From Saprospiraceae bacterium (GTDB taxonomy: Bacteria; Bacteroidota; Bacteroidia; Chitinophagales; Saprospiraceae), in the NCBI GenBank assembly GCA_020629965.1, contig JAHDCG010000041.1, positions 1-39,537 of the forward strand: a stretch of DNA of 39,537 nt, written 5' to 3'. Of this stretch, positions 25,267 through 26,323 are shown piece after piece. The position numbers and the translations under genes were made by a program. Numbering within the stretch: position 1 is the stretch's first letter; the number at the start of each line of letters is the position of its first letter. The notes beneath the pieces are model-generated. The model made no database searches, had not been told where the DNA came from, and was given only the letters and a program-made list of their open reading frames with translations.

Positions 25267-25642
25267 CGCGGGGTGGAGCAGCTGGTAGCTCGTCGGGCTC
25301 AAGAAATTGCTTTTTTATCGACATTATTTCTTTGTGAGATACGAAACAAAGAAAGTGTTTTTTCAAACTATCGGTAAAATAACTTGGGCTGCTTAGTCGG
25401 AAACGATTAAGTGAATTCTGTCAAATTCGGGGAAGTCTTTAGTATGATAATCCCGAGCTAAGCTTTGATAATTTTTTTATCATTGAAAGTGTAGAGACTT
25501 GATGGCAGACACCTAAATTTTGCATCTGCAAAACACGGTGAAGAGAAAGTCCGGACTCCAAACTCAGAAACTTTCTGAGGCAGTGAAAACTGTAGAAGTG
25601 CGCATAACCCGAAGGTCACAGGTTCGAGTCCTGTCCCCGCTA
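25267..25642 (+). tRNA. initiator tRNA-Met (CAU) interrupted by a group I intron
   Basis: Exon 1 (25267-25299) and exon 2 (25603-25642) join into a 73-nt cloverleaf. The acceptor is 5' CGCGGGG with 3' CCCCGC plus T72 and A73, so C1 faces U72 unpaired, the initiator hallmark. The D arm is GAGCAGCTGGTAGCTC. The anticodon arm is TCGGG-CTCATAA-CCCGA with anticodon CAT, including the three consecutive G:C pairs of initiator tRNAs. The T arm is ACAGG-TTCGAGT-CCTGT. CCA is not encoded. The 33-nt first exon ends exactly at U33, so the intron separates U33 from C34 of the anticodon. A strong promoter precedes it and a terminator follows. Confidence 0.95.
25300..25602 (+). ncRNA. group I intron (IC3-like), 303 nt, without internal ORF
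   Basis: Helices visible by eye. P1: GGCU of exon 1 plus CAAG (25296-25303) pairs with CTTGGGCT (25383-25390), placing U25299 opposite G25387, the canonical U-G pair at the 5' splice site. P2: 25392-25399/25404-25411 with a GAAA loop. P3: 25417-25422/25504-25509. P4: 25427-25431/25452-25456. P7: GACTT 25496-25500/AAGTC 25547-25551. P8: 25510-25540 with TTTTGCA/TGCAAAA. P9: CTCAGA/TCTGAG 25563-25579. Another GAAA hairpin lies at 25581-25592. The intron ends in G (25602). The P/Q region resembles the cyanobacterial tRNA-Leu intron (AAATTCGGGGAA ... AATCCCGAGCTAAGC). The P1 loop (25304-25382) carries an extra TTTCTTTG/CAAAGAAA hairpin. Self-splicing is expected, not shown. Confidence 0.93.
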
Positions 25643-25650
25643 CTGAGTAG

Positions 25651-25686
25651 AAAAGCCTGACAATCAGTTGATTGTCGGGCTTTTTT
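25651..25686 (+). terminator. intrinsic terminator of the tRNA-fMet transcript
   Basis: A 15-bp stem (25651-25665 with 25670-25684, one T-G pair), AGTT loop, then a T run. It starts 8 bases after the tRNA 3' end. Confidence 0.9.
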
Positions 25687-25788: not shown

Positions 25789-25818
25789 AAGCCTGATAAT
25801 CGGTTGATTATCAGGCTT
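25789..25818. repeat. second hairpin, near-duplicate of the tRNA terminator
   Basis: AAGCCTGATAATC, GGTT loop, GATTATCAGGCTT: a 13-bp perfect stem that differs from the terminator at 25651 at a few positions and lacks a long T run. It stands 40 bases before the endonuclease-like gene. Confidence 0.8.
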
Positions 25819-25845: not shown

Positions 25846-25853
25846 TATCTTTG
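25846..25853 (+). promoter_or_regulatory. candidate -7 box giving a leaderless mRNA
   Basis: TATCTTTG fits TAnnTTTG and ends 5 bases before the ATG at 25859. A start site at the usual distance would fall at or next to the ATG. The -33 element is not evident. Confidence 0.5.
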
Positions 25854-25858
25854 ACGAT

Positions 25859-26323
25859 ATGGAAACCAAACAAAAAGGAGACATTGCCGAACAAGCCACG
25901 GTTTTGCAAGCATTAAAATTAGGATGGGGAGTGTTAACTCCGTACGGCGACAGATTACCTTATGACTTAGTGTTTGATACGGGTGAAAACTTCGTTAAAA
26001 TTCAAGTAAAAAGTGCATGGTTTGACAGTACCAAAGAAAACTATGTAACAGATAATCGCCGTACAAAAACCAACAGGAGAAGAATGATTCGGTCGAATTA
26101 CTCTGCGAATGATTTTGACTTTGCCGTAATTTACCTTCAAGATTTGGAAGTATTTTACATTATGCCCGTAGAAATTTTTAACGCTTACGGCTCCGAAATT
26201 CACTTTGTAGAAAGCGAGAAAAGACAACGGAAGCCGAAATCGGCCGGTTACAGAAATGCTTGGCATTTAATAAATAACAAGAGCCACAAAACAGCGGACG
26301 CGATAGGTCAGAAAAATCCGTGA
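25859..26323 (+). CDS. I-Ssp6803I-like PD-(D/E)XK homing endonuclease (group I intron-associated family), free-standing
   Basis: 154 residues. The N-terminal QKGDIAEQATVLQALKLGWG, then TPYGDRLPYDLVFD and VKIQVKSAW, match the family named after the endonuclease of the Synechocystis tRNA-fMet group I intron (Pfam PDDEXK_5). Candidate catalytic residues are Glu11, Asp36, Gln49 and Lys51; a Gln in place of the usual acidic residue is, as I recall, also found in I-Ssp6803I. A basic stretch (TDNRRTKTNRRRMI, near 64-77) and YSANDFDFAVIYL follow. The last 20 residues are polar and could be drift. Unlike the cyanobacterial gene it is not inside the intron: it starts 216 bases after the intron-bearing tRNA-fMet on the same strand, with a terminator between them. 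The expected target is the intronless tRNA-fMet; this is inference. Confidence 0.85.
   Translation: METKQKGDIAEQATVLQALKLGWGVLTPYGDRLPYDLVFDTGENFVKIQVKSAWFDSTKENYVTDNRRTKTNRRRMIRSNYSANDFDFAVIYLQDLEVFYIMPVEIFNAYGSEIHFVESEKRQRKPKSAGYRNAWHLINNKSHKTADAIGQKNP

Follow-up and report, generated by a model that had tools for sequence, protein, structure and literature searches.

How does an intron come to have the same target as an endonuclease that is not encoded within it? This open question is raised by a 39,537-nt contig of a Saprospiraceae bacterium (JAHDCG010000041.1; the whole stretch is called the window below), in which a forward-strand gene at positions 25859 to 26323 encodes a 154-residue PD-(D/E)XK homing endonuclease of the I-Ssp6803I family, downstream of a tRNA-fMet gene interrupted by a group I intron that lacks an open reading frame (ORF). 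As judged from comparisons among genomes, intron and enzyme probably constitute a split ("collaborative") homing pair, in which the enzyme would target intronless tRNA-fMet and the intron would protect the chromosome that carries both.

An I-Ssp6803I-type endonuclease outside the intron

The tRNA-fMet gene of the window, on the forward strand, consists of a 5' exon at 25267 to 25299 (ending in GGGCT, with U33 as its last base), a 303-nt intron at 25300 to 25602 and a 3' exon at 25603 to 25642 that begins with CATAACCC. The intron lies between U33 and C34 in the anticodon loop, ends in G and matched the Rfam model RF00028 (59.8 bits, E = 7e-13), and the joined exons were called by ARAGORN as tRNA-Met(cat). 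The longest forward-strand ORF touching the intron has 46 codons, and 216 nt separate the end of the tRNA from the start codon of the endonuclease gene. Exon boundaries and ORF scan thus agree with the first-pass annotation, which had placed a gene with E11, D36, Q49 and K51 outside the exons and downstream of an ORF-less intron; the coordinates and all four residues were as it claimed. We take these four residues, the motif named in that annotation, to have catalytic roles.

The proposed kinship with I-Ssp6803I was borne out by profile search and structure prediction alike. The protein matched Pfam PF11645 (PDDEXK_5) with E = 2.1e-49 and 167.5 bits against a cut-off of 26.1, and it is the sole PDDEXK_5 match in its own 6.5-Mb genome. 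A sequence search of the PDB returned only 2ost (I-Ssp6803I; E = 6.5e-60), with 63% identity over 140 residues; the 2ost chain has Q at the E11 position, presumably because an inactive mutant was crystallized. When an AlphaFold2 model (predicted local distance difference test, pLDDT, 81) was submitted to Foldseek, the 2ost chains took ranks 1-4 with TM-scores of 0.76-0.81 by query length and were the only PDB matches at E ≤ 0.001. No family was assigned in an NCBIfam search, and the best PHROGs match was phrog_5018 (E = 2e-21), of unknown function, followed by three others at E = 0.017-0.21. The window protein belongs to the I-Ssp6803I/PDDEXK_5 family, as a member that is not intron-encoded, because its gene begins beyond the 3' exon.

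Recurrence of the outside arrangement

To place the window among its relatives, a profile combining 2ost with the window protein and a Bacteroidota relative was searched against 84,980 species genomes, and the best 80 of 118 relatives were taken as the locus set, to which the proportions of loci given here refer. Together with the window and one locus from a phylum survey (L004) this gave 82 loci, or 81 distinct ones since L092 is the same record as L004, and each was classed by exon positions. The enzyme gene lay inside an intron of a tRNA(CAU) in 44 of the 81 and downstream in 34 (window included), with three elsewhere. Among the embedded cases, 42 loci (41 distinct) were in tRNA-fMet introns of 602-713 nt, two more followed the 5' exon in the same way but were cut by a contig end, and one (L088) was in the intron of a CAU-anticodon tRNA with another anticodon stem. 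The 34 downstream loci had introns of 240-340 nt and a median gap of 80 nt (32 within 250 nt), and every one had a hairpin and T-run after the tRNA. The exon boundaries of the window fitted all 75 distinct inside or downstream loci. Sampling was uneven (19 of 33 downstream loci are cyanobacterial).

The survey of related genomes therefore upheld the linkage of intron and enzyme beside tRNA-fMet that the first-pass annotation had proposed, and since the sequence similarity much exceeds chance, recurrence in 33 other loci makes misassembly of the window very unlikely. The same recurrence, across three phyla, refutes the idea that an unrelated PD-(D/E)XK nuclease, for instance one of restriction or defence, came to lie near the tRNA by accident; such folds are widespread, and a hairpin does stand between gene and tRNA, but with the identity to I-Ssp6803I also against it we give this explanation practically no weight. 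A phage carrier is unsupported by the viral contigs searched, where 28 stretches fitted a peptide pattern and none encoded a relative. Two other configurations were noted: at L076:766-1242 the enzyme gene lies upstream of an intron-containing tRNA-fMet, a placement seen nowhere else in the sample, and at L052:4583-4702 the outside gene is directly followed by another copy of the enzyme, truncated and covering query residues 1-40 at 77.5%.

The downstream proteins are well conserved. E11, D36, Q49 and K51 were present in 33 of 33 aligned downstream proteins (the broken L058 omitted), the 59 columns conserved among embedded enzymes were, on average, unchanged in 98% of downstream rows, and the ratio of nonsynonymous to synonymous substitution rates (dN/dS) was 0.05-0.35 in all pairs for which it was computable, 9 of 11 downstream pairs. 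By these substitution patterns the downstream enzymes are evidently under purifying selection.

Intact enzymes and intronless tRNA-fMet

If the enzyme targets intronless tRNA-fMet, the two would be expected to avoid each other. An intronless tRNA-fMet was sought, with up to 2 mismatches, in 45 genomes (34 downstream, 3 elsewhere and 8 embedded) and was found in none of them; two weak matches have other anticodon stems.

Three sets of related genomes were then compared, in which PDDEXK_5 matches below the cut-off (intronless Spirosoma G439, G458 and G461; G472 and G516 in the Saprospiraceae-like family) were not counted as fMet-type enzymes. In Spirosoma, 29 of 36 genomes carry an exact intronless gene (G402 is omitted from the 29, its sole match having a different anticodon stem), and an over-cut-off enzyme occurs in none of the 29, while six of the seven genomes without an intronless gene have one, outside the intron in all six. 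The upstream flank is orthologous across the Spirosoma genomes, and on a flank tree of 35 of the 36 genomes the patchy presence of the enzyme required 5 changes. The cleanest empty site was seen in L118, which, compared with S. oryzae, lacks both intron and enzyme: the intron is missing precisely at the junction, the two loci share the terminator region (92%), and only 24 nt are found where S. oryzae has 562 nt that include the enzyme gene. The S. oryzae terminator is nearer to other Spirosoma than to its closest empty relative, with too few sites to argue for a clear import of terminator and spacer along with the intron.

In the window's own family (Saprospiraceae-like, 100 genomes), an intronless gene was called with at most 1 mismatch in 76, none of which has an fMet-type enzyme. 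The 24 genomes without an intronless gene comprise 13 with a confirmed fMet intron and 11 without one; fMet-type enzyme or traces of it were found in 8 of the 13, outside in four (one broken) and inside in four (one with a stop, one only remnants). The sole same-genus genome, G484, has an intron 89% identical to that of the window, with only 6 bp of contig left beyond the tRNA.

The strongest evidence comes from the 11 genomes of a Nostoc-like genus. An intact outside enzyme is present in both intron-bearing genomes, and in the other nine the orthologous locus contains a tRNA-fMet without intron, with upstream sequence 87-96% identical to the L036 reference. Seven of these nine intronless genomes retain broken pieces of the enzyme at the place of the intact gene; in an eighth (L214) only the first codons could be recognized, by eye, and in L219 there was nothing. 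Within 610 bp past the tRNA, the longest ATG-started frames at those eight loci are 36-81 codons. Broken enzyme copies also occur in L058 and G523. No enzyme remnant was found in 59 intronless loci elsewhere (29 Spirosoma and 30 of the Saprospiraceae-like family, the latter covering 30 of its 76 intronless genomes, with fewer than 600 bases past the tRNA in 5 of the 30); one Spirosoma match, in L108, was discarded as an artefact, since the query ORF (L075) was too long and extended across the tRNA. Thus, in the genomes examined, intact fMet-type enzyme and intronless target are mutually exclusive, and a dead enzyme beside an intronless target is seen repeatedly.

One intronless Nostoc-like genome, G568, encodes a PDDEXK_5 protein with a helix-turn-helix-like tail far from tRNA-fMet. 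Its 237-codon frame (L225:1207-1917, reverse strand) is a distant family member that we do not count as the same enzyme (31-32% identity to the fMet type in best matches), and no tRNA intron was found within its 3.3-kb locus.

Changes of position and their direction

The first-pass annotation had offered, as a second possibility, that the outside gene marks a stage preceding invasion of the intron by an endonuclease. On a maximum-likelihood (ML) tree of the enzymes from 79 of the 81 distinct loci (the broken L055 and L058 omitted), the downstream label required 7 changes, at least 4 of them imposed by well-supported branches, compared with 25.6 on average in shuffles; the bootstrap of this tree was not fully settled, and the window's own position in it is unsupported. 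Within clades (Nostocales, Spirosoma, Arcicella) the downstream state does not vary, yet it is interleaved with the embedded state.

To read the direction of these changes, the codons preceding a conserved GGGC motif were scored, in the reading frame used by the embedded gene, against a profile of 38 embedded loci and compared with shuffles; the test covered 38 embedded and 34 outside loci (three embedded loci and L076 had no anchor and were omitted). Twelve of the 34 outside introns scored at p < 0.01 and 20 at p < 0.05, where about 2 are expected at 0.05, and for each of the 12 introns, of five frames tried, the embedded gene's own frame scored best. Eleven of these introns come from cyanobacteria and are not independent; one example of an in-frame C-terminal remnant is that of L047, LNAYQLVLQWAV, to be compared with RNAWDLILQWAV in the embedded L025. 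The twelfth, L029 (VWDLILH), is from Bacteroidota, and its enzyme sits in a supported clade of mostly embedded enzymes, whose intron cores its own intron core most resembles. Since these introns retain in-frame remnants of the enzyme C-terminus, the gene was formerly inside the 5' part of the intron in at least two lineages, and the order there, as read from the remnants, is from inside to outside.

A free-standing enzyme that independently targets the intron site and is about to move inside, as in the order proposed for phages, is accordingly contradicted for two lineages, and a single protein family occupying both positions, with the states interleaved on the tree, also speaks against it. 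In its favor stand a published model of mobile intron origin (PMC3984707) and introns free of remnants in the window (shuffle p = 0.96) and in the Spirosoma loci tested. Marginal scores were obtained for L023 and L037 (Arcicella and a Cytophagales relative; p = 0.04 and 0.03), and the Arcicella introns in the test gave p = 0.43 and 0.04, at most marginal. We consider a pre-invasion stage improbable. That part of the first-pass annotation fails in the cyanobacterial introns and L029, where remnants let the order be read; the window's intron has no such remnant.

Inheritance of intron and enzyme

The two placements differ in how they are distributed among hosts. The nearest same-state relative belonged to another phylum for 26 of 39 embedded loci and for 1 of 33 downstream loci, and among pairs less than 25% different, 16 of 23 embedded pairs crossed phyla, as opposed to 0 of 109 downstream pairs. 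On one reading, the embedded gene may travel on tRNA homology alone, whereas the outside gene would need flanking homology. Distances between intron cores and between enzymes were correlated across 32 downstream loci (Mantel r = 0.78, or 0.49 after taxonomy) and across 39 embedded loci (r = 0.31). Co-presence and co-absence of intron and enzyme were observed in Spirosoma; transfer itself was seen in no case.

Several observations weigh against an actively homing pair. The outside enzymes are correlated with host taxonomy (Mantel r = 0.77), so that inheritance may be mostly vertical and homing rare or over. Clustering of the Spirosoma genomes that have both elements was no different from chance (130 of 500 shuffles as low), and in one Spirosoma pair the enzyme is 82% alike while the upstream flank is 92% and the intron 97% alike, a pattern unlike that of recent joint transfer. 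Spirosoma G448 has the intron alone, and no enzyme was found in 5 of the 13 confirmed-intron genomes of the Saprospiraceae-like family, with two of these five loci cut off by, or close to, the end of a contig. Intron and enzyme need not be tightly linked, because at L041 the enzyme lies ~8.75 kb downstream of a tRNA-fMet intron, seen on a contig of equal length, and at L042 the enzyme and its genome's tRNA-fMet intron are on different contigs. Finally, the remnant-free intron of the window itself is a point on the same side.

Some of these data would suit an outside gene that moved or stayed out and is a leftover after homing ended, vertically inherited, slowly decaying and with no present role in mobility; to the taxonomic signal and the lack of close relatives in other phyla can be added the broken copies in L058, G523 and the intronless Nostoc-like genomes. 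Slow decay is difficult to reconcile with dN/dS values well under 1 and with full catalytic conservation in the aligned copies, and intact copies are seen only where the intron is present; the patchy presence in Spirosoma also disagrees with it. We therefore regard the leftover explanation as unlikely, though likelier than a pre-invasion stage.

A probable split homing pair and its possible consequences

The reading that we favor for the window remains split homing. The enzyme would cut the joined-exon sequence of intronless tRNA-fMet, and the intron, by interrupting the target site, would protect its own chromosome; family membership and the broken enzyme genes beside intronless alleles suggest that the enzyme site is the intron insertion site. 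On meeting an intronless allele, repair of the break may copy the intron, 3' exon, terminator and enzyme gene, or the intron only. Precise loss of the intron would leave the outside enzyme able to attack the restored site. With the enzyme gene outside, the intron should be lost only once the enzyme is dead, an order that fits the pattern in the Nostoc-like genus. The split homing advanced in the first-pass annotation thus gains comparative support from the recurrent linkage, from 0 of 45 genomes with an intronless gene and from broken enzymes beside intronless alleles; the cutting and co-transfer that it proposed are steps that we infer.

Outside placement might, in addition, create an addiction-like unit, in which the intron acts as an antidote by hiding the target and the enzyme as a poison, with the outside form confined to lineages. 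The intron of this essential tRNA could then not be lost while the enzyme lives, because the outside gene would stay and attack the restored tRNA-fMet; an embedded gene would disappear along with a precisely lost intron. The outside form would stay within lineages because its travel needs flanking homology. We put this forward tentatively, as possible but short of an even chance.

Spacer elements and other tRNA introns

The spacer between tRNA and enzyme gene in the window contains a terminator-like hairpin with a T tail (25649 to 25686, forward strand), detected in a terminator scan that returned 2 sites for the region against 1.5 expected in shuffles, and a second, similar hairpin (25789 to 25818, forward strand), read from the sequence and absent from the scan output. 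The two hairpins flank the spacer and may reflect a local duplication. At 25846 to 25853 on the same strand, 5 nt before the ATG, TATCTTTG is a candidate Bacteroidota-type -7 element. The -7 consensus of Bacteroidota is TAnnTTTG; a similar element is not obviously common to the other Bacteroidota loci.

ARAGORN run without introns gave no tRNA in the window, and its intron mode mislabeled the tRNA-fMet as tRNA-Leu(caa). Because standard tRNA calling misses the split tRNA-fMet, such genomes seem to have no initiator tRNA. The window's own genome contains a second group I intron, of 257 nt (G000:C29:6996-7208, reverse strand; L002), in a gene called tRNA-Arg(tct) in intron mode.

Distant PDDEXK_5 proteins were inside tRNA introns in 8 of 8 loci (L005, L006, L007, L008, L009, L183, L184 and L190), with no outside case; ARAGORN labeled seven of these tRNAs tRNA-Arg(tct) and that of L007 tRNA-Leu(taa). 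Over-cut-off PDDEXK_5 matches of G513 and G530 likewise lie in introns of tRNAs called Arg(tct). An Arg(tct)-type tRNA is probably, by these labels, a second target gene of the PDDEXK_5 family. Group I introns of 756 and 314 nt were also seen in tRNAs called tRNA-Gln(ctg) at L137 and L206.

Relation to known systems and significance

I-Ssp6803I is presented in PMC1995217 as the first PD-(D/E)XK homing endonuclease described, encoded inside a 655-nt tRNA-fMet intron, and a table in PMC3073962 places the embedded Synechocystis gene in P1 of the intron, overlapping P1/P2. The S. salina intron in our sample (L093) is also 655 nt, the size listed for PCC 6803 in PMC1995217. I-Ssp6803I and the window enzyme are alike in protein family, motif positions, tRNA gene and exon boundaries; they differ in that the I-Ssp6803I gene is inside its intron, whereas the window gene is outside the tRNA gene and the window intron is smaller.

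Collaborative homing has been described for phages (PMC3984707 and PMC10448857). The cyanophage psbA intron with F-CphI and the ICP1 terminase intron with a T5orf172 gene resemble the window in that the group I intron lacks an ORF and the endonuclease is encoded by a free-standing gene adjoining the interrupted one. The phage cases concern phage protein genes and other nuclease families, whereas the window has a bacterial chromosomal tRNA and a PD-(D/E)XK enzyme, and, unlike in the phage cases, one enzyme family here also occurs inside the intron. In the tRNAscan-SE 2.0 paper (PMC8450103), 36 genomes are reported to miss fMet or Ile2 owing to group I introns, in a passage that mentions no endonuclease adjacent to the tRNA-fMet introns of Gloeobacter and other bacteria, with which the window shares the U33/C34 insertion and a group I core. 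The literature searched, which was short on subscription papers, among them those on I-Ssp6803I, yielded no account of a bacterial tRNA intron with its enzyme encoded outside, so that an earlier description is possible.

A tRNA intron listed as ORF-less may have its enzyme gene adjoining, and calls for caution. In the loci described here, members of a single enzyme family are found both inside and outside the intron of one essential tRNA, also in named genera with isolates (Spirosoma, Arcicella and Nostoc); with empty sites, part-decayed states and fossils at hand, it can be tested directly which way the change ran, what separation costs and how it affects intron loss. Because the split arrangement recurs in several bacterial groups, the origin and death of split selfish elements can be studied there.
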